Positions 2,077 through 12,281 of a stretch of DNA of 12,281 bases are shown piece by piece. Numbering within the stretch: position 1 is the stretch's first letter; each line of letters opens with the position of its first letter. The notes beneath the pieces are model-generated. The model had not been told where the DNA came from and made no database searches. It worked only from the letters and a program-made list of their open reading frames with translations. The position numbers and the translations under genes were made by a program. This DNA is from Candidatus Sulfopaludibacter sp. SbA3. Its GTDB lineage: Bacteria > Acidobacteriota > Terriglobia > 20CM-2-55-15. The stretch spans positions 1 to 12,281 of the forward strand of contig CAMAWS010000045.1 of the NCBI GenBank assembly GCA_945861845.1, read 5' to 3'.

Positions 2077-2232
2077 GTGTCTGCCGCGGCAACCTGCGGC
2101 ACGACGAGTAATGCTTTTCGAGTTTTCAGCTTGATCTTCTCTTGGGGGGTGGGCGGAACGTACGTAGTTTAATGGCTCAGCCTCAAGATGCAATCTTTAA
2201 ATCGACTCCCGGTGGTAGACTTTATCGACTCC
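2077..2232. other. Divergent intergenic region between CHRD gene and efflux operon
   Basis: This spacer must hold the promoters of both divergent transcription units. I see an 8-bp perfect palindrome ACGTACGT at 2158-2165 and an AT-rich CTTTAAAT near 2196, but no convincing paired -35/-10 on either strand. No regulator binding site can be named. Confidence 0.4.
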
Positions 2233-3453
2233 ATGAACACACGAACTCTTCTCCTCTCGTTATTAGGATTACTGGCGCTTTCCGCGTGCAGTTCACCCCC
2301 GGCAGGGCCTCCCGGAGGCATGACCTTTCCGCCGACGCCTGTGCGGATTGCGCAGGCCGCGGAAGAGTCCGTCCCTGTCGAACTGAAGGCAGTTGGTACC
2401 GTGGAACCCCAGGCCTCGGTCGAAGTGAAGTCCCAGGTGGCAGGACAGCTTCTGAGCGTGCGCTTCACGGAAGGCGCAAACGTCCGCGAGGGCGACCTGC
2501 TGTTCGAGATTGATTCCAAGCCTTATCGCGATGCGCTCCGGCGGGCGCAAGCGGACGTTACCAGGGACCAGGCGCAACTGCGGCAAGCGGAAGCTCGCCT
2601 CGCTCGAGACCAGGCCCAACTGAAGAATGCGCAGGCGGATGCCGAACGATTCCTTCAGCTCGCCGCACAGGGATTGGCGCCACGCATGCAGGAAGCCCAA
2701 ATACGGACTGCGGCAGAAGTGGCCGTGCAAGCGGTTCGCGCCGATGAAGCGGAAATCGAAAGTATTCGCGCCGCGCTTGAGAGTTCTCGCTCCACCGTAG
2801 ACCGCGCCCAACTCGAACTCAGTTACTGCGAAATCCATTCGCCCATCTCCGGCCGGGCAGGCAACGTGCTGGTTCACCCGGGAAACCTGGTGAAAGCAAA
2901 TGGCGACGGTCCGCTGGTTGTCATCAATCAGATCAGTCCGATCTTTGCGACTTTCGGCGTGCCGGAGCGATACCTCGCTACAATCGCCCAGAAAAGCTCG
3001 GGCCGGAAACTCGCCGTCAAGGCGTCCATTGAGTCCTTTGGCTCCACGGACAAAGCATCCGGTCAAGGTTCAACCGGAACGCTCAGCGTGATCGATAACA
3101 CGGTGGCTCCAAACACCGGGACCATTCGCCTGAAGGCGGTTTTCAATAACGCCGATGCGCAGCTCTGGCCTGGGCAATTCGTCAACATCGTCCTGACGCT
3201 CGACCGGCGGACAGCTATCGTGGTTCCTGCGGAGTCCGTGCAGGCCGGCCAACAGGGTTCATTTGTATATGTCGTGAAGCCCGATCAGACGGTCGAACCG
3301 CGTCCTGTAACCACCGGACAGACATACTCGGGCAAGGTCATCATTGAAAGCGGCATCGCCATCGGTGAAACCGTGGTTACGGATGGGCAGTCACGCCTGT
3401 TCCCCGGCGCAAAGATTCAGCCGCAGGGCCAGCAGGGCCAGCAGGGCAGCTAG
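2233..3453 (+). CDS. RND efflux periplasmic adaptor lipoprotein (membrane fusion protein, AcrA/MdtA-like)
   Basis: This 406-residue protein links the inner-membrane RND pump to an outer-membrane channel in the periplasm. The start at 2233 is preferred over an in-frame ATG at 2188 because it puts a lipoprotein signal first: MNTRTLLLSLLGLLALSAC, with lipobox LSAC and lipidated Cys19. A Pro/Gly-rich linker follows. The first lipoyl half is at about 55-95 (SQVAGQLLSVRFTEGANVREGDLL). An Ala/Gln/Arg-rich coiled-coil hairpin spans 99-192, the second lipoyl half is near 195-220 (YCEIHSPISGRAGNVLVHPG), and a beta-barrel and membrane-proximal domain run from 235 to 395. The tail is a Gln/Gly repeat (QGQQGQQGS). 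Length and domain order match the family. The next gene starts 2 nt after the stop, so the two are co-transcribed and probably translationally coupled. The ribosome binding site is weak (GGTGG near 2212). The substrate cannot be told. Confidence 0.95.
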   Translation: MNTRTLLLSLLGLLALSACSSPPAGPPGGMTFPPTPVRIAQAAEESVPVELKAVGTVEPQASVEVKSQVAGQLLSVRFTEGANVREGDLLFEIDSKPYRDALRRAQADVTRDQAQLRQAEARLARDQAQLKNAQADAERFLQLAAQGLAPRMQEAQIRTAAEVAVQAVRADEAEIESIRAALESSRSTVDRAQLELSYCEIHSPISGRAGNVLVHPGNLVKANGDGPLVVINQISPIFATFGVPERYLATIAQKSSGRKLAVKASIESFGSTDKASGQGSTGTLSVIDNTVAPNTGTIRLKAVFNNADAQLWPGQFVNIVLTLDRRTAIVVPAESVQAGQQGSFVYVVKPDQTVEPRPVTTGQTYSGKVIIESGIAIGETVVTDGQSRLFPGAKIQPQGQQGQQGS

Positions 3454-3455
3454 TC

Positions 3456-6400
3456 ATGCATTTCTCGCGCATCTTCATCGAACGCCCCGTCATGACGACA
3501 CTGGTCACGTTCGCGATCCTGCTTTTCGGCATCGTGGCGTTCCGCGTGTTGCCGATTGCCGCGTTGCCGAGCATCGACTATCCAACAATACAGGTGCAGG
3601 CGTTCCAGCCCGGCGCCAGTCCTGAGACAATGGCTTCGTCGATTGCGACGCCGCTCGAGCGGGTGTTTTCCACGATCGCAGGCGTGCAGTCGATGAGTTC
3701 CTCGAACAACCAGGGAGCGACCACGATCACGATTCAATTCGGCCTGGATCGCGATATCGACGCCGCCGCGCAGGATGTTCAGGCCGCCATTGCCCAGGCC
3801 CAGCTGCCGCCAATGCCCCGCCCGCCTTCGTATGTAAAGTCGAATCCATCCGAATTTCCGATCCTCTTTTTCTCGCTGAGTTCGGACACCCTGCCGATGT
3901 CCACCGTTAACGAGTACGCGGAAACGATGCTGGCCCAGCGGATGTCCACCGTCAGCGGTGTATCCCGCGTGCAGATCTTCGGCCCGCAGAAATACGCCGT
4001 CCGCATAGAAGCCGATCCTGACCTGCTCCTGGCGCACAATGTCGGCATCGACGAGGTACAGCGCGCCGTGCAGCAGGCCAACGTGAACCTGCCCACGGGA
4101 AAACTCTATGGGGACAGGCAGGCATTCACGGTCCAGTCCACCGGCCAGTTGACGACCGCTGCGGCGTATCGGCCGCTGATTGTGGAATGGCGCAACGGAG
4201 TGCCGCTGCGGCTGGAACAGCTGGCCAACGTCATCGACAGCGTCGAGGACGACAAGACCATCGCATGGTTTAACGGCGAACGCGCCATGTTCCTGGCAGT
4301 GTCCCGGCAGCCGGGCACGAACACAGTCGCAATCGTCGATCGGGTCCGCGCACTGATGCCCGAACTGCAGGCGGCTCTGCCGCCAAGCGTCAAGCTTGTC
4401 GTTGCCTTTGACGGTTCGGAGACCGTTCGCGGATCGATTGGCGATGTCGAGTTCACCCTCATGCTGACGATCGCACTGGTTGTCATGGTCATCTTCGTGT
4501 TCCTGCGTAACCTGTCGTCGACGCTGATTCCGGGATCGGCCGTCGTGCTGTCCATCATCGGCACATTCGCCATGATGTACATGTTCGACTACAGCCTGAA
4601 CACGCTGTCGCTGATGGCGCTCACGCTGTCTGTGGGCTTCGTTGTGGACGACGCGATCGTCATGCTCGAAAACATCGTCCGGTACATGGAGATGGGCAAG
4701 GGCCGGTACGAAGCGGCCATGCTGGCCTCAAAGGAAATCGGATTCACGATCGTGTCGATGACCGTGTCGCTGGTGGCGGTATTCATCCCTGTACTCTTCA
4801 TGAGGGGAATGGTCGGCCGCGTCCTGCATGAATTTTCCGTCACGATCATTGTCGCCATCCTGATCTCCGGATTCGTCTCGCTGACGTTTACGCCGATGCT
4901 CGGCAGCCGGTTCCTGCCGCCTCACAACCGCAGGCATGGAAGGCTGTATCGGGCTCTTGAGCATGGCTTCGACATGCTCGCCTCCGCTTACGACTACACG
5001 CTCCGGAAGACAATGCATCACCGGATCGTAACTATGACCGTGGCAGCCGCGATGCTCGTGGGTACGGTGTATCTTTTCATGACGATGCCCACGGGTTTCA
5101 TTCCGAGCCAGGACCAGGGATTTCTTTTCGGCGTCACGATGGCCGGGCAGGACGTGTCGTTCGAATCGATGGCGGAGAAACAGAAGGCTGTCTCGGATAT
5201 TGTTCAGGCAGACCCGAACGTCGAAAACGCGATCACATTCGCCGGACAGAGTAATTCGTCGTTTCTATTTTCGAAACTGAAGCCGCGCGGCGAGCGCGCG
5301 CTTTCGGTCGATGAAACCATCGGGGCGTTGCGTCCGAAACTCGGCGCGGTCCCGGGAATGATGACGTTTCTCCAGAACCCGCCCCCGATCACCATCAACG
5401 GCCAGTTCACCAGCAGCATCTACCAGATGGTCGTCCAGAGCGTAAACCTCCAGGAAATTTACACGTGGGTGCCGCAGCTCGCCGGCAAGATCCGGACGCT
5501 TCCTGGATTCCTGGATGTGAACAGCGACGTACAGGTAGCCAGCCCGCAGGTCACCGTGGATATCGACCGCGACCGGGCTTTCGCGCTTGGCGTAACGCCC
5601 CAGCAGATTCAGGACGCACTGTATACGTCGTATGGCGATCGGCAGATATCCAGTATCTATGCGCCTGCGAACCAATATTCCGTGATTCTTGAAGTCAAGC
5701 CGGAGTATCAGAACACCCCGGATGCACTGTCGCGGATTACCATCCGGTCCTCAACCGGCGCGCTCATACCTCTCGAACAGATCACTACAACGAGGCGGAC
5801 TGTCGGCCCGCTCAGCGTGAATCATTTCGGACAGCTTCCCGCCGCGACGATTTCGTTCAACCTGCAGCCCGGGGTCTCATTGGGTGACGCCGCTGCTACT
5901 GTTGAGCAGGTTGTCCGGGACCTGCGGATTCCGGCCAGCGTGACGACGAGCTTTCAAGGAACGGTCAAGGAGTTCCAGGAGTCGTTTCAGGGAATGACCA
6001 TCCTGCTGATCGTGGCCATTCTTGTGATTTACATCGTCCTCGGGGTTCTGTACGAAAGCTTCATTCATCCGATCACGATTCTGTCAGGCCTTCCGTCCGC
6101 AGTATTCGGCGCGCTGCTCACGTTGACCCTGTTCGGAAAACAGCTCGACCTGTACGCGTTTGTAGGACTGATCATGCTTTTCGGAGTGGTGAAGAAAAAC
6201 GCAATCATGATGATCGACTTCGCCCTCGAAGCGCAGCGCGGAGGCAAGAGTGCCGAAGAAGCGATATACCAGGGCTGCATCCTGCGATTCCGCCCCATCA
6301 TGATGACCACAATGGCTGCCCTGCTCGGGACGCTGCCCATCGCCCTTGGCTATGGCGAGGGCGCCGATGCGCGCCAACCACTGGGACTGGCCGTGGTGGG

Positions 6401-6521
6401 AGGCCTCATGGTTTCGCAGTTCCTGACCCTCTATATCACCCCAGTGTTTTACCTCTATATGGAGCGCCTTCGGACGTGGCGCGCCAAACCGGCAACCGGG
6501 ATGGAACGAGTCAGCGCGTAA
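3456..6521 (+). CDS. RND multidrug efflux transporter permease (HAE1 family, MdtB/MdtC/AcrB-like)
   Basis: This is a 1021-residue inner-membrane drug/proton antiporter, full length for the HAE1 family. The N-terminus is typical (FSRIFIERPVMTTLVTFAIL, first membrane helix). Two large periplasmic loops lie at about 40-330 and 550-845. The membrane helix clusters are at about 332-480 and 848-1000. The proton-relay residues are present: Asp398-Asp399 in GFVVDDAIVMLENI (AcrB D407/D408), Lys914 in VVKKNAIMMIDF (AcrB K940) and an Arg in RFRPIMMT near 946 (AcrB R971). The pump should therefore be active. It starts 2 nt after the adaptor gene and ends 2 nt before the small HTH gene. No TolC-type gene is in the window, so the outer-membrane channel must be encoded elsewhere. 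Substrate is unknown; the loop style looks closer to MdtB/MdtC than to AcrB. Confidence 0.97.
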   Translation: MHFSRIFIERPVMTTLVTFAILLFGIVAFRVLPIAALPSIDYPTIQVQAFQPGASPETMASSIATPLERVFSTIAGVQSMSSSNNQGATTITIQFGLDRDIDAAAQDVQAAIAQAQLPPMPRPPSYVKSNPSEFPILFFSLSSDTLPMSTVNEYAETMLAQRMSTVSGVSRVQIFGPQKYAVRIEADPDLLLAHNVGIDEVQRAVQQANVNLPTGKLYGDRQAFTVQSTGQLTTAAAYRPLIVEWRNGVPLRLEQLANVIDSVEDDKTIAWFNGERAMFLAVSRQPGTNTVAIVDRVRALMPELQAALPPSVKLVVAFDGSETVRGSIGDVEFTLMLTIALVVMVIFVFLRNLSSTLIPGSAVVLSIIGTFAMMYMFDYSLNTLSLMALTLSVGFVVDDAIVMLENIVRYMEMGKGRYEAAMLASKEIGFTIVSMTVSLVAVFIPVLFMRGMVGRVLHEFSVTIIVAILISGFVSLTFTPMLGSRFLPPHNRRHGRLYRALEHGFDMLASAYDYTLRKTMHHRIVTMTVAAAMLVGTVYLFMTMPTGFIPSQDQGFLFGVTMAGQDVSFESMAEKQKAVSDIVQADPNVENAITFAGQSNSSFLFSKLKPRGERALSVDETIGALRPKLGAVPGMMTFLQNPPPITINGQFTSSIYQMVVQSVNLQEIYTWVPQLAGKIRTLPGFLDVNSDVQVASPQVTVDIDRDRAFALGVTPQQIQDALYTSYGDRQISSIYAPANQYSVILEVKPEYQNTPDALSRITIRSSTGALIPLEQITTTRRTVGPLSVNHFGQLPAATISFNLQPGVSLGDAAATVEQVVRDLRIPASVTTSFQGTVKEFQESFQGMTILLIVAILVIYIVLGVLYESFIHPITILSGLPSAVFGALLTLTLFGKQLDLYAFVGLIMLFGVVKKNAIMMIDFALEAQRGGKSAEEAIYQGCILRFRPIMMTTMAALLGTLPIALGYGEGADARQPLGLAVVGGLMVSQFLTLYITPVFYLYMERLRTWRAKPATGMERVSA

Positions 6522-6780: not shown

Positions 6781-6839
6781 TCCTGTCAGGTCGGACCGTT
6801 TGCGGCCCGGAGAGTCCACGTAGCGCCCTCCTTACAGGA
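6781..6839. repeat. Imperfect inverted repeat between convergent genes
   Basis: TCCTGTCAGG at 6781-6790 pairs with CCTTACAGGA at 6830-6839, with one mismatch and a loop of about 39 nt. It lies between the convergent HTH gene and the toxin gene, and the right arm includes the toxin stop codon. No U-tract follows on either side, so a terminator role is only possible and chance pairing cannot be excluded. Confidence 0.3.
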
Positions 6840-7215
6840 CGTACGGAACCACTACGAATCGGTGGCGCTTCGGGGGGAAGTCACCAACATCGCGCGTTGC
6901 CAACTTCAGTTTGTGGTGCTTTGCAATCGCCGCCTGAAAGGCATCTGGCATCTTCCAGCGGTATCGTCTACGTAACGTCGCGGCCAGATCGGCTATGGTG
7001 CGGTCAATGATCAGCGTCGGAAAGCAATCGAGCAGCGTGCGCGCAAGTTTCCTGTCCTTGCCCTCAAAACCAGCAAGGACTTCGGCGCGGGTGATGACTG
7101 AGATTGCAAGACGTCCCTGCGTCTGCGAGAGGTACTCGGTCGCAGATGTTATTCCGTTAAAATGGTCGATGAGAATCACAGAATCAGCCAGAATCTTCAG
7201 GCCTGTCTCTGCCAT
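6832..7215 (-). CDS. vapC: PIN-domain ribonuclease toxin (VapC-type)
   Basis: This is a 127-residue PIN-domain protein; VapC toxins are metal-dependent RNases that cut tRNA or rRNA. The acidic active-site residues are in the expected places: Asp11 in ILADSVILIDHF, Glu45 in VITRAEVLAGF, Asp91 in KMPDAFQAAIA and Asp109 (with Asp112) in LATRDVGDFP. The start at 7215 is chosen because AAGGGAAC lies just upstream and because the usual VapC N-terminus begins there. An in-frame ATG at 7263 would add 16 residues without family resemblance. The gene overlaps the end of the antitoxin gene by 19 bp, the usual order for a coupled pair. The protein looks complete and active. The RNA target cannot be told from sequence. 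Confidence 0.9.
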   Translation of the reverse strand: MAETGLKILADSVILIDHFNGITSATEYLSQTQGRLAISVITRAEVLAGFEGKDRKLARTLLDCFPTLIIDRTIADLAATLRRRYRWKMPDAFQAAIAKHHKLKLATRDVGDFPPKRHRFVVVPYVL

Positions 7216-7439
7216 TGTTCCCTTATGCGGCGCTGATACGCCAAGGCATCGCCTGCCTTCCACATTCCACTGGTCCGCTTCAGCAACTCATCCATCGAGG
7301 GAGACCCGCCGCTCTTCTCATCGCGATATCTTTGAACCGCAGTGCGTATGAGTTCAGCCATGGATAGTTTCTCTTCCCTGGCGCGGCGGTCCAGCCAGTC
7401 TTTGCTTTCCTGATCGAGACTTATCACGGTACGGATCAT
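7197..7439 (-). CDS. vapB: Ribbon-helix-helix antitoxin (VapB/CopG-type)
   Basis: This 80-residue protein neutralises the PIN toxin encoded just downstream and probably represses its own promoter. The N-terminus is a ribbon-helix-helix DNA-binding fold: beta strand MIRTVISL, helix 1 at about 10-23 (ESKDWLDRRAREEK) and helix 2 at about 26-40 (MAELIRTAVQRYRDE). The C-terminal part (SMDELLKRTSGMWKAGDAL) is the expected toxin-binding region. GGAAGGAT at 7446-7453 (minus strand) lies 6 nt before the ATG and supports this start. The toxin ATG sits inside the last codons of this gene, which couples their translation. Upstream are two GATATC boxes flanking a plausible -10. Family assignment among RHH antitoxins is approximate. 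Confidence 0.88.
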   Translation of the reverse strand: MIRTVISLDQESKDWLDRRAREEKLSMAELIRTAVQRYRDEKSGGSPSMDELLKRTSGMWKAGDALAYQRRIREQWQRQA

Positions 7440-7514: not shown

Positions 7515-7630
7515 ACTCGGAAGTGCGTCAGGTTCGGCATCTCTTAAGAGTTTCTGAAGTTTTAGTCAGATTCCGCACTGGCCGCTGGATGTGCTCTATA
7601 TTTTCAACGACCAACAGCCAGGGGGAATGA
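7515..7630 (+). promoter_or_regulatory. Leader and promoter region of the TonB receptor operon
   Basis: The region holds a perfect 10-bp palindrome CTCTTAAGAG (7541-7550) and a possible -10, TATATT (7597-7602), 28 nt before the receptor ATG. No good -35 lies at the matching distance. The leader is too short and lacks the conserved boxes for a cobalamin riboswitch. The palindrome could be an operator, but no known Fur or B12-regulator site is recognised. Confidence 0.35.
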
Positions 7631-9886
7631 ATGCACTTCAGAGAGTTGCTGCCGCTCAGTGTTTTCCTTGTAGTCGTTAATGCCGGCGGAGAATTGTATA
7701 GCCAGGAGCAGGGGCATGGGTCCGATCCGTTTCATCCAAGGACGACGGTCGTCGTTACGGCCACAAGATCCGAAATTGAGTTGGACAAATCGCCCGTATC
7801 CACAAATGTACTGACTGAAAAGGAGCTCGCATCACGGCCGTTGCAGACGCTCGACCAGCATCTCGGACTGATGGAAGGGTTGTACGCGCATCGGACACAG
7901 GGACCGTCGGCGACGGATTCCCATGTCTCGCTGCGGGGATTCAATGGCAGCAGCCGCACGCTGGTTCTTCTGGACGGTCATCCGATCAACGATTCCTACG
8001 CAAACAGCGTTAACTGGACGGCGCTGCCGGTCAGCGAGGTGCAAAGCGTTGAGGTTGCCCGAGGCCCGTCATCCTCTCTTTATGGCGGGAATGCTCTCGG
8101 CGGCGTCATCAACATCGTCACCCGGCCGGCGGAAAAGCGCGAATTCGAGTTCAGCGGACAATACGGCCGCTACAACTCCGGGAACTACTCCGCCCGGTAT
8201 AGCGACAGGCTGTTCCAACGGCTCGGCCTCTCATTGGGATATCAACGATTTCGGACCGAGGGTTACAACAGCCGCGTCACGACGAGCACGCCTGCGGCGG
8301 CCACGGCGACGGGCATTCCCGTGTACGGCGCGATCCCCACGACGACTAGCCAGGGCGCCGCTTCCGCCATCATCGGACGGGGCGGATTGAATTGGCTTAA
8401 CAAGCAATCGTACCGCGCGAAGGGCGACTATGCGCTGAGCAACTCGACGTTCGTCTCGGCTCAATACATCCGGCAGGAGTATGGATACGGTTTCACCGAT
8501 TATCGAAGCGATTTGAGAGACGCATCGGGCAACGTTGTCGATAACGGCACGCTGCTGTTCGCCAACCCGGCTACAGGAACCGTGCAGCGGCTCACGATTA
8601 CCCCCACGAGTTTCCTTCAGGGACCGGGCGAACAGAAGTCCCACTTCTACAGCGCAACTCTTCAGCACGGAATTTCGGGCGGACGAACCATTCGGCTGGA
8701 TGGCAGTCTCTATCACATTCCCACCTACCAGTTTCGGTCGGCCTCCGCCGGCTCGAACACCGTTCAGGGACCGGGTACTGTGACGGGAGGCGAGCGGCGC
8801 GGTTATCATGCCAACGTTCAATACAAGGCCGGGCCTCCGCGGCACGCGCTCATTATCGGAGCGGAAACCCGTCATGACATGGCGGCGAACGCAAGCTTCA
8901 CCCTGGCAAACTGGCAGGTCAAAGGCAGCCGGCTCGGTCAAACTTTCTTCGCGATCGGCCGAAGCTTCAACCAGAGCGCCTACATCCAGGATCAATATTC
9001 GATCAATGACCAGATAAGCCTCACTTTTGGCGGACGCTACGATTACTGGAAGACCTATGACGGCCAGAGCAACAGCTTCATCGCACTCAGCCCCCAAACG
9101 CTCTATCCGGAGCGTTCGAGCAACAAGTTCAGCGGAAAAGTGGCGATTGCCTACGGCCTGCCTGGCGATTTGAATCTGCGCGCGAGCGTCGGCACGGCAT
9201 TCCGCAACCCTAACGTCTTTGACCTGTACGCAACGTCGGTGAGCGGGGGCGTTACGATCTTCCGCTCCAATCCGGCCCTGACGCCGGAGAACACAAAGAG
9301 TTGGGAAGTGGGAGTCCGGAAGAGGCTTGCCGAGCGAACGGATTTCGACGTGGCCTATTACGAGAATCACATCACCGATCTCATTTACCGGCAGACCGAC
9401 TTCGCGGCAGACCCGTCGGGTAACGTGCGCGTCAACGTGAACGCGGGCGGCGGAAGGACCCGCGGCGTGGAAGTTGCTTTTCGGCACGAGCTGATTACTG
9501 GCCTGCAATTCCGTTCCAGTTACACGTATACCGACGCGAGAATTACCGAGAACGATGCGAGTCCGGCAACGGTCGGCAAGCGCGTCACTTTTGTTCCGGA
9601 ACACATGGCTTCAGGACAATTTCTCTATATCCGCGACAAGTGGACCGGCTCACTGGCCGGCAGATACTCGGGTGGACTGTTCGGCACCGACACCAACCTC
9701 GACGTGAGGAAGGGAGTGCCCGGTGCTTACGATCCCTTTTTCTCGATGGATGCAATGGTCGGATACACCGTGGACTCGAGGACACAGGTATTCGTTTCGG
9801 GCGAAAACATTCTCAATCGCCGCTACTACAGCTTCTATTTATCGCCAGGCCGGACTCTCTATGTGGGATTGAGAATCCGCATATGA
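7631..9886 (+). CDS. TonB-dependent outer membrane receptor (metal-chelate / heme / corrinoid type)
   Basis: This 751-residue outer-membrane receptor imports a scarce ligand using proton-motive force passed on by TonB. The N-terminus is a signal peptide (about 1-24). A TonB-box-like segment, RTTVVVTATRS, is at 37-47, and the plug spans about 48-168 with RGFNGSSRTLVLLDGHPIND and VEVARGPSSSLYGGNALGGV. The 22-strand barrel follows and ends in RTLYVGLRIRI, with a typical penultimate-strand motif SGENILNRRYYS. A FRAP/NPNL-like pair, FRNPN (524-528) and NPALTPE (547-553), occurs as in HmuR/BtuB-like receptors, but no His lies between them. GGGGGAA directly before the ATG is the ribosome binding site. 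The stop overlaps the next start (ATGA at 9883). Context with a CobN-family protein points to heme, corrinoid or a metal chelate as ligand; sequence alone does not decide. Confidence 0.94.
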   Translation: MHFRELLPLSVFLVVVNAGGELYSQEQGHGSDPFHPRTTVVVTATRSEIELDKSPVSTNVLTEKELASRPLQTLDQHLGLMEGLYAHRTQGPSATDSHVSLRGFNGSSRTLVLLDGHPINDSYANSVNWTALPVSEVQSVEVARGPSSSLYGGNALGGVINIVTRPAEKREFEFSGQYGRYNSGNYSARYSDRLFQRLGLSLGYQRFRTEGYNSRVTTSTPAAATATGIPVYGAIPTTTSQGAASAIIGRGGLNWLNKQSYRAKGDYALSNSTFVSAQYIRQEYGYGFTDYRSDLRDASGNVVDNGTLLFANPATGTVQRLTITPTSFLQGPGEQKSHFYSATLQHGISGGRTIRLDGSLYHIPTYQFRSASAGSNTVQGPGTVTGGERRGYHANVQYKAGPPRHALIIGAETRHDMAANASFTLANWQVKGSRLGQTFFAIGRSFNQSAYIQDQYSINDQISLTFGGRYDYWKTYDGQSNSFIALSPQTLYPERSSNKFSGKVAIAYGLPGDLNLRASVGTAFRNPNVFDLYATSVSGGVTIFRSNPALTPENTKSWEVGVRKRLAERTDFDVAYYENHITDLIYRQTDFAADPSGNVRVNVNAGGGRTRGVEVAFRHELITGLQFRSSYTYTDARITENDASPATVGKRVTFVPEHMASGQFLYIRDKWTGSLAGRYSGGLFGTDTNLDVRKGVPGAYDPFFSMDAMVGYTVDSRTQVFVSGENILNRRYYSFYLSPGRTLYVGLRIRI

Positions 9887-10470
9887 ACAGCCCGCTTTTC
9901 ACCGCGCTCCTGATGCTCTGCGGCTTAGGGGCAGTGACGTTTGCGGCAAAGGCAGCCCGCAGGCGCGAGGTATTTCCCGGGCTTGCGCTGGCGCTCGCGA
10001 TACCGGCGTCCGGCATTCCGCCAGAAGCGATTCCGGACGCAAGATGGATCGGGTCCATCGCAGCCGCAGTCGCGGCAATAGAAATTTTCAGGCCGAACGC
10101 GCGTTGGATCGCATCGCTCTGTGGCGGCGCGCTTGCGGGCCTGCTTGGCCTGCTTCTTCAGGCTCAGGGACTGCCGTTTCCGGTCGGGGTTCTGCTGGCC
10201 GTTGCGGTGCCGTCCGTCGCGGCGTACTTCTCCCTGCGCCGGACCGGGTTCGCGCCTGAGGCGCTGCGCCAGGAGGCAATGCTCGCAACGCTGGCGCTGG
10301 GCGTGGCAGTGGCCGTCATTCCCGGCGTAACCTCGGGCTGGCAGTCGGCGCTCGCGTTGAATCGTGACGAAGTAAGCAGCTCGAATCATATAATTGCGAA
10401 CTGGGTGTTTCTCCTGGGCGCGGCTTCGGTGGCGCTCGGCGGACTGTACTCTCTCTTGAGGCGCCGATGA
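9883..10470 (+). CDS. Multi-pass inner membrane protein of unknown function in the receptor operon
   Basis: I do not recognise this 195-residue protein with certainty. It is very rich in Ala, Leu, Gly and Val with about six or seven hydrophobic segments: roughly 4-20, 32-46, 56-71, 76-94, 97-115, 130-150 and 170-190. It ends in a basic tail (LLRRR), so it is an integral inner-membrane protein. The start is fixed by an ATGA overlap with the receptor stop; its own stop overlaps the next ATG the same way, so three genes are translationally chained. Position between a TonB receptor and an ExbB-family channel suggests a role in inner-membrane transport or assembly of the same uptake system. Archaeal and bacterial neighbourhoods of this kind can carry a DUF2162-type membrane protein, but I cannot confirm that match. 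Confidence 0.82.
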   Translation: MNSPLFTALLMLCGLGAVTFAAKAARRREVFPGLALALAIPASGIPPEAIPDARWIGSIAAAVAAIEIFRPNARWIASLCGGALAGLLGLLLQAQGLPFPVGVLLAVAVPSVAAYFSLRRTGFAPEALRQEAMLATLALGVAVAVIPGVTSGWQSALALNRDEVSSSNHIIANWVFLLGAASVALGGLYSLLRRR

Positions 10471-11084
10471 CGTTGCTGGAAATTCTGGAAAATGGACTCT
10501 TCGCGCTCGGACAGGTGCTGCGGTTCCCTGTCATGGGCCTCCTCTAAGTATGCGTGGCAAGCGCGCTATTCATGGCCGGCAGCTGCCTGGTCGAGTTCCT
10601 TTCCCGGCAGCGCGAACGCCATGGATTCGACTTGAATCGCTGGCTGCTGGGCGGTCCCGTCCTGGATTCGACCGCCGAATGAAAGAAGGCATTGCCGGCG
10701 GAGCTGCGTGGGCTCCTGCTGGAGGTTGAGCAGGGGAAAGACAACCTCGGAGACGGCGGCGTCGAGCATACCGTCATGAAACGTGAAGAGAGTGTCCGAA
10801 GCACAGTCAATCCTTCGCGTACCCTGGTCAAAGTCGGGCCGAGCCTCGGACTTCTGGGAACGCTGATCCCCATGGGTACGTCGCTGGCCTCTTTGGCGGC
10901 GGGAAACCTGGAGGCGATGGCGGGCCAAATGATAGTCGCCTTCACGACAACAATCATCGGGCTCGCCTGCGGCACAATGGCATACATCGTCGCCGTGGTA
11001 CGGCAGGGCTGGGTCAACCAGACAATTCGCGAACAGCGGTACCTGGCGGAACGAATCGCCAGCGAGCTGGCGCGTGGAGCGTAA
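10467..11084 (+). pseudogene. MotA/TolQ/ExbB-family proton channel gene with two in-frame stops
   Basis: One reading frame of 205 codons runs from ATG at 10467 (ATGA overlap with the preceding gene) to TAA at 11082, but TAA (codon 27, 10545-10547) and TGA (codon 72, 10680-10682) interrupt it. Read through, it is full length for the family. A hydrophobic helix spans about 20-45, with the first stop inside it. A cytoplasmic stretch follows, then the signature GPSLGLLGTLIPMG (124-137) and the last helix with AFTTTIIGLACGTMAYIVAV (158-177). ExbB/TolQ/MotA proteins form the proton-conducting stator that powers TonB, Tol or flagellar work. No frameshift or deletion is seen and the motifs after each stop look intact, so inactivation is recent, or a base-call error, or the stops are read through. 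A weak restart at TTG 10692 would give a 130-residue C-terminal piece keeping the last two helices. Confidence 0.85.
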
Positions 11085-11089
11085 CAGAC

Positions 11090-11452
11090 ATGGGCAGGTT
11101 CCTGCATTTGTCCGCACCGGAAGAACCGCCAGAGGAAGATCCTCTTGCGGGAGTTGCCAATCTTTTCGACGTGTCGGTGGTGTTCATCGTTGGCCTGATG
11201 ATCACGTTGTTTTCGGTTTATCGGATGGGGGACCTCGTCGATAAAAACAGCGAGGTCACCATGGTCAAGACGAATGCCCAGGGCGAGCAATAGATCATCG
11301 TGAAAAAAGGCACAACGATCACGGCCTACAAGGTCACAGGCAAGACGATGGCGGGCGAAGGCGAACGCCTGGGTACGGCGTACCGTCTGGCGAATGGCCA
11401 GGTCATCTATGTGCCTGACGGTCCGGGAGAGAACGATGCAAACAAGGACTGA
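11090..11452 (+). pseudogene. DUF2149-type ExbD-like protein gene with an in-frame amber stop
   Basis: The frame runs 120 codons from ATG 11090 to TGA 11450-11452, interrupted by TAG at codon 68 (11291-11293). Residues 1-22 are acidic and Pro-rich (SAPEEPPEEDP). A single membrane helix spans about 26-44 (FDVSVVFIVGLMITLFSVY). A soluble C-terminal domain follows, with IIVKKG and GEGERLGTAYRLANGQVIYV after the stop; that last motif is what I recall as typical of DUF2149. Asp27 at the start of the helix matches the essential Asp of ExbD/TolR, so I infer an ExbD-like partner for the ExbB-family protein encoded 5 bp upstream. GGAG at 11076-11079 is a plausible ribosome binding site. Without readthrough, a 67-residue product would keep the helix but lose the conserved domain. 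The function of DUF2149 is not established. Confidence 0.8.
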
Positions 11453-11456
11453 AAAA

Positions 11457-12281
11457 ATGCGGATTTTCCGGGGTCTCTCTTTGTTTCTGTTGCTGTGCGT
11501 ACTGACGCCGTCAATACTCGCCGCCGAACCTGTACACCTTGCATTCGTTTATTCCGACGGGAACATCCCCGGAACAGTACGCGCGTTCAAGGCGCTGCTG
11601 GCGGAAAGGCCCGACCTGAAGGGGCAGGTCTCCATCAGCTTTCTGACGGAGTCCATGTTCGACGATGTGAATCCAGCCGACATCACGCGGGCCGACGTCC
11701 TGCTGCTGGACATCATGAACCAGCAGATGCTGGAGCGCTTCAACGAGAAGCACAAGATCGACATCATCAAGGCCGTTCGCTCGCATGGGGGCAAAGTCCT
11801 GGCCATTGGACAGGGCCTGGTTCCGAAAGAGAAGTACATCGAACAGGGCGCCCTCTGGGAAGACCTGCCCCGGGCGTACTGGACGTATTCGGGTTTCGCA
11901 AACCGGCTGGCTCTCATGAAGTATGGCTTCAGGGAAGGCGGCGTCTCCGGCCTGACACTGCCCGATCCTCAACCCAGCCTGGATTTCGGTTACTACTACT
12001 CTGATGGCAACACCGGCCGCGTGTTTGCCAGCTGGGAGCAGTTCGATTCATGGCGGCAGGCAAACGGCAAACGCAAGCCCGGAGCTTTACGCGTCGCGAT
12101 TGGGTTCTACAAAGCGGCCTATTATGGCGGCGAGACCGACCTGCTTGATGCGCTCATTGCGGAAATCGAGAAGCAGGGCGCGGAAGCGATTCCTGTGTTC
12201 GGCTATCCCGGCGGCATCGCCTTCGAACGATTGTTGATCGACTCCGAGGGACGCCGGCGCGCGGATGCCGGTCTCGGCTTC
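11457..12281 (+). CDS. Exported CobN/HmuS-like chelatase-family protein, N-terminal part
   Basis: The frame is open for 275 codons to the window edge; CobN/ChlH-family proteins usually exceed 1000 residues, so most of it lies outside. Residues 1-23 form a Sec signal peptide (MRIFRGLSLFLLLCVLTPSI, then LAAEP), unlike cytoplasmic CobN of cobalamin synthesis, so it acts in the periplasm or at the membrane. The rest matches the N-terminal CobN/BchH region in style: HLAFVYSDGNIPGTVRAFKA, DVLLLDIMNQQMLERF and GALRVAIGFYKAAYYGGETD. CobN inserts cobalt into a corrin. The related HmuS of Bacteroidota hmu operons works on heme, and I recall a proposed iron-removing reaction. AAGGA at 11444-11448 supports this start; an in-frame ATG at 11436 behind GGGAGAG would add seven residues. 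The metal, ligand and direction of reaction here are unknown. Confidence 0.88.
   Translation, partial: MRIFRGLSLFLLLCVLTPSILAAEPVHLAFVYSDGNIPGTVRAFKALLAERPDLKGQVSISFLTESMFDDVNPADITRADVLLLDIMNQQMLERFNEKHKIDIIKAVRSHGGKVLAIGQGLVPKEKYIEQGALWEDLPRAYWTYSGFANRLALMKYGFREGGVSGLTLPDPQPSLDFGYYYSDGNTGRVFASWEQFDSWRQANGKRKPGALRVAIGFYKAAYYGGETDLLDALIAEIEKQGAEAIPVFGYPGGIAFERLLIDSEGRRRADAGLGF

Follow-up and report, generated by a model that had tools for sequence, protein, structure and literature searches.

Three in-frame stop codons in the putative energizer pair of an acidobacterial heme-uptake-like operon point to probable recent gene loss

The stretch of DNA analysed here (the window) is an entire contig of 12,281 bases (C45), taken from a genome that lies in 496 contigs and is 81.46% complete. 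Its right-hand part holds the following genes and features, all on the forward strand.

7631..9886, + strand: TonB-dependent receptor, open, in HmuR-like position, with plug and barrel domains
9883..10470, + strand: 195-aa protein, open, in the place expected of the membrane protein HmuT from its position in the operon
10467..11084, + strand: MotA/TolQ/ExbB-type channel gene (HmuU-like; Pfam PF01618, MotA_ExbB) with two internal stops
10545..10547, + strand: in-frame TAA at codon 27 of 205 of the channel gene, in a column invariant in 30 aligned relatives
10680..10682, + strand: in-frame TGA at codon 72 of the channel gene, in a column invariant in 30 aligned relatives
11090..11452, + strand: DUF2149 gene (HmuV-like) with one internal stop; Pfam PF09919 matches both halves
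11291..11293, + strand: in-frame TAG at codon 68 of the DUF2149 gene, in a column invariant in 25 aligned relatives
11394..12281, + strand: start of a CobN-like gene (HmuS-like; PF02514), open to the contig end

The description given by the first-pass annotation, two neighbouring genes that between them hold one stop of each type without a frameshift, was borne out: the stops are the TAA at 10545, the TGA at 10680 and the TAG at 11291, and both genes align at a single constant offset to those of G001, except for the variable last ~9 codons of the DUF2149 gene. G001 (contig CAMBFR010000006.1) is Candidatus Sulfopaludibacter sp. SbA3 isolate TH-08apr19-233, of the phylum Acidobacteriota and the same genus as the window. 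In both energizer genes the frame is broken relative to the orthologues, and the alignments in which the affected columns are invariant cover, of the 120 proteins listed for each gene, 30 for the channel and 25 for DUF2149. The genes on both sides were correctly said to be open. The CobN-like gene runs into the contig end and resumes on contig C55, with residues 1-297 of the 1354 in G001 matched in the window and residues 312-1354 on C55, where the matched stretch contains zero stops once 15 codons are trimmed from each end; PF02514 was found in the full-length G001 gene as well. An antisense open reading frame at 10544-11290 was rejected as a real gene because G001 has a stop inside it. Searches against solved structures gave weak matches only, to PomA for the channel and to an unrelated S100 protein for DUF2149.

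The gene set resembles the hmuYRSTUV operon of Bacteroidota, with which it shares a TonB-dependent receptor and CobN-like, hypothetical, MotA/TolQ/ExbB and DUF2149 genes (PMC10434189, PMC12583661). In that system HmuR is said to act with HmuU and HmuV, and HmuS is said to strip iron from heme (PMC12583661). The receptor stands beside the set, the CobN-like gene corresponds to HmuS, and the adjoining MotA/ExbB-type and DUF2149 partners are present, intact in G001 and interrupted here; the differences from the Bacteroidota operon are this interruption, the acidobacterial host and the position of the CobN-like gene, which comes last, and HmuY is not among the genes identified here. The top NCBIfam score of the receptor is to the TonB-hemin family, under the cut-off of that family, and the 195-aa protein has no family match in Pfam or NCBIfam. 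Relatives of the 195-aa protein adjoin the same gene set in the four further acidobacterial loci whose layout we compared (L191-L194); the window's gene order (HmuT-like, channel, DUF2149, CobN-like) recurs in L192 and L193, while L194 has the CobN-like gene in reversed orientation. On this likeness, the channel and DUF2149 proteins would form the inner-membrane energizer of an hmu-type heme-uptake operon, with heme transport and de-metallation as its putative functions.

The interruption is restricted to one lineage in the class sample that we searched. The window is 90.3% identical to G001 across 4,748 aligned positions, and G001 carries both genes open; with the stops omitted, protein identity to G001 is 97.0% for the channel and 97.3% for the first 112 DUF2149 codons. 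The channel gave 39 matches in 32 of 399 genomes and DUF2149 gave 43 matches in 36 of 399 (5 of the 43 fall under the family cut-off), and in each case a single match, the one in this genome, contains stops. Among the other 38 channel matches, that of G306, which belongs to another family, spans residues 3-53 only. There (L191, 6440-8078 on contig C35), channel residues 1-53 are joined to CobN-like residues 1071 onward, followed by a frame shift, and the HmuT-like gene is intact upstream of the fusion. L191 thus appears to be the remnant of this operon after a deletion that removed the rest of the channel gene and the DUF2149 gene. Together with the stops in the window, this would mean that the segment has been lost twice in the class sample, if the G306 assembly is right. 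Three other channel relatives, P0090, P0034 and P0040 (130, 122 and 164 aa), are without the N-terminal part, whether because the start was miscalled, because a contig ends there or through some other break.

The first-pass annotation had called for dN/dS of the two genes against close relatives. Compared with G001 and with stops omitted, the ratio is low for both, 0.098 for the channel and 0.063 for the first 112 DUF2149 codons; these values, like those of the neighbouring genes, average both lineages and mostly reflect the time before the stops. By eye, with the direction of change taken from P0002 and other relatives and the last ~9 DUF2149 codons omitted, each gene has two missense changes that are private to the window, four in all. 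It had been argued, from a count of 23 stops among 549 single-base changes from sense codons, that three nonsense changes would need to come with many missense changes. We reproduced the count, and the direction of the argument holds, with nonsense making up 3.4-5.3% of nonsynonymous opportunities in these genes and a chance of 0.0012-0.0044 for three nonsense changes in seven. Its strength is reduced, since once a first stop is given the chance of two further stops in six changes is 0.016-0.037. The excess of stops is unusual but not impossible for a window that was picked because it was odd.

Each stop also lies within a cluster of three substitutions in five bases. Where 0.47 such clusters would be expected in the two genes, there are four (P 0.00055), three of them containing the stops. 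Across 20 conserved genes of the genome pair, the channel included, we counted 114 clusters against 73 expected, so multi-base changes are common in this pair, and the clustering is strongest in the channel gene (3 against 0.35). One multi-base event can explain one stop together with its neighbouring changes; that three events should all yield stops is somewhat surprising under every reading except selection or function. In a literature search of titles and abstract openings, we found nothing on point about multinucleotide mutation giving rise to nonsense changes or pseudogenes in bacteria.

Of the explanations put forward in the first-pass annotation, recent loss is the best supported, and we give a probability of roughly 65% to the channel and DUF2149 genes being a recently inactivated, lineage-specific pseudogene pair. 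A first nonsense change would have abolished the energizer pair, and with selection lifted, further nonsense changes could have accumulated while the receptor, HmuT-like and CobN-like HmuS genes stayed open. The receptor could then be driven by a separate TonB-ExbB-ExbD cluster on contig C191 of the same genome, where an ExbB-type gene lies, in an open cluster, between frames read by eye as TonB and two ExbD. What we infer from these observations is that function was lost, in what order the events came and that another energizer took over. Recent loss is favoured because G001 and all the other matches (38 of 39 for the channel, 42 of 43 for DUF2149) are free of stops, because the stops hit columns invariant in the aligned relatives, and because a second, longer contig also carries the pieces bounded by the TGA and the TAG. 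It is further favoured by the open receptor, HmuT-like and HmuS genes, with dN/dS against G001 of 0.138, 0.233 and 0.122 (the last for the window part of the gene), by the open ExbB-type cluster on C191, and by G306 appearing to have deleted the same segment.

The young pseudogenes of Salmonella described by Kuo and Ochman (PMC2916853) offer a likeness in their lineage-specific disruption, their intact counterparts in close relatives and their high residual identity. Nonsense is common there as a single lesion, accounting for 131 of 346 cases, which again favours recent loss. What speaks against it is that a single lesion is typical of those pseudogenes (346 of 378), whereas here there are three nonsense changes in two adjacent genes with no indel and just four private missense changes. 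The three-substitution cluster around each stop also counts against recent loss, as does the fact that relaxed selection is not yet visible in dN/dS averaged over both lineages. If reads confirm the stops, the window would show a heme-uptake operon shortly after the loss of the energizer pair dedicated to it, with the receptor and the CobN-like gene still open. It would then allow a natural test of whether a genome with a TonB-ExbB-ExbD cluster can do without HmuU and HmuV. The mechanism is most likely ordinary gene loss and not a new reading of the genetic code.

It is also conceivable, though unlikely, that the living cells have intact genes and that the stops were made by clustered base-call errors or by mixed strains in a fragmented metagenome-assembled genome. 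The number of contigs and the incomplete genome are in keeping with such an artefact, and so is the tight cluster of substitutions around each stop. Against it, each of two pieces, the 130 aa that follow the TGA and the 67 aa that precede the TAG, is recorded on two contigs, of which the longest has 47,897 bases. That longer contig may have been assembled from the same reads, and the TAA could not be confirmed on it: a search for the middle piece gave no protein there, which is uninformative either way as gene callers skip short frames. We also surveyed internal stops in 61 stretches per genome, keeping matches with at least 80% identity and at least 80 residues. Among the 93 G001 open reading frames matched in this genome (40,951 aligned residues), the channel gene alone has internal stops, and no match split between frames is listed; the DUF2149 gene falls under the 150-aa limit for open reading frames and so outside the survey. 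The 11 stops listed comprise two in the channel gene, seven within the first 45 codons of frames that had been chosen mechanically, one in the last nine codons of a frame, and one in L064, where the pattern of variation is unlike that of a coding frame. The reverse survey, with G001 as the target, lists 10 stops in 98 open reading frames, and therefore we take the edge stops as background. The genome-wide check of in-frame stops that had been proposed, run here on the 93-gene sample, thus turned up no premature stops besides those of the channel gene, and a genome-wide poor assembly is not supported. Random errors would moreover produce stops far more rarely than missense changes. Both the second contig and the sample, in which other internal stops are lacking, weaken the candidate of a consensus error, and in its plain form it is disfavoured by these comparisons; the doubt that remains is an artefact common to the two contigs.

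Selection may have played a part in the loss if a leftover piece of the channel without its partner were harmful, for example through a proton leak, so that more stops in the pair were favoured. Stops do exceed expectation relative to missense changes, both partners are hit, and selection can remove inactive bacterial genes according to the work on Salmonella (PMC2916853). Yet the excess depends on three stops, dN/dS cannot reveal selection of this kind, and the harm from a channel piece is hypothetical. We consider such a selected stepwise loss improbable.

Even less probable is a functional interruption, whether by readthrough of the stops or by a restart of the pieces at GTG or TTG codons shortly behind them, that still yields a working energizer. 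The protein behind the TGA remains 96.2% identical to that of G001, and an in-frame GTG or TTG follows the stops by 3, 4 and 3 codons, with a chance of 0.025 that all three would lie within four codons. On the other side, the recent origin of the stops accounts for an intact frame without function, and the stops occur in no relative found, while conservation of the stops among relatives would be expected of readthrough. A single suppressor would be insufficient for three stop types, and the 25 tRNAs found by homology, an incomplete set from an incomplete genome, include no suppressor anticodon. The window has no Rfam match at E values of 1 or below, and all three stop codons also terminate other sampled genes. 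Regulated readthrough, which had been offered as a candidate, is accordingly left unsupported by the relatives, Rfam and the tRNAs, and recoding appears disfavoured on the sequence comparisons. The narrower proposal of a three-piece channel gene and a two-piece partner gene, with each piece restarted at GTG or TTG and the pieces still assembling into a working energizer, is slightly less probable again, and little speaks for a functional interruption of either kind.

A reassigned genetic code was rightly judged unlikely and is rejected, since all three stop codons terminate other genes, both in the window (TAG for 2188-3453, TAA for 3456-6521 and TGA for 7631-9886) and in 98 sampled open reading frames, which end in TGA (38), TAA (32) or TAG (23), with 5 open at contig ends.

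Upstream of the operon, a VapBC-like pair of PIN-domain and ribbon-helix-helix genes lies at 6832-7439 on the reverse strand, with AcrB-type efflux genes on one side and the hmu-like operon on the other. Just past this pair, at 7542, the match to G001 sets in, which is where the G001 contig starts. At the far end of the window, positions 1-2067 on the reverse strand encode a protein with four CHRD-domain stretches that runs off the contig start.
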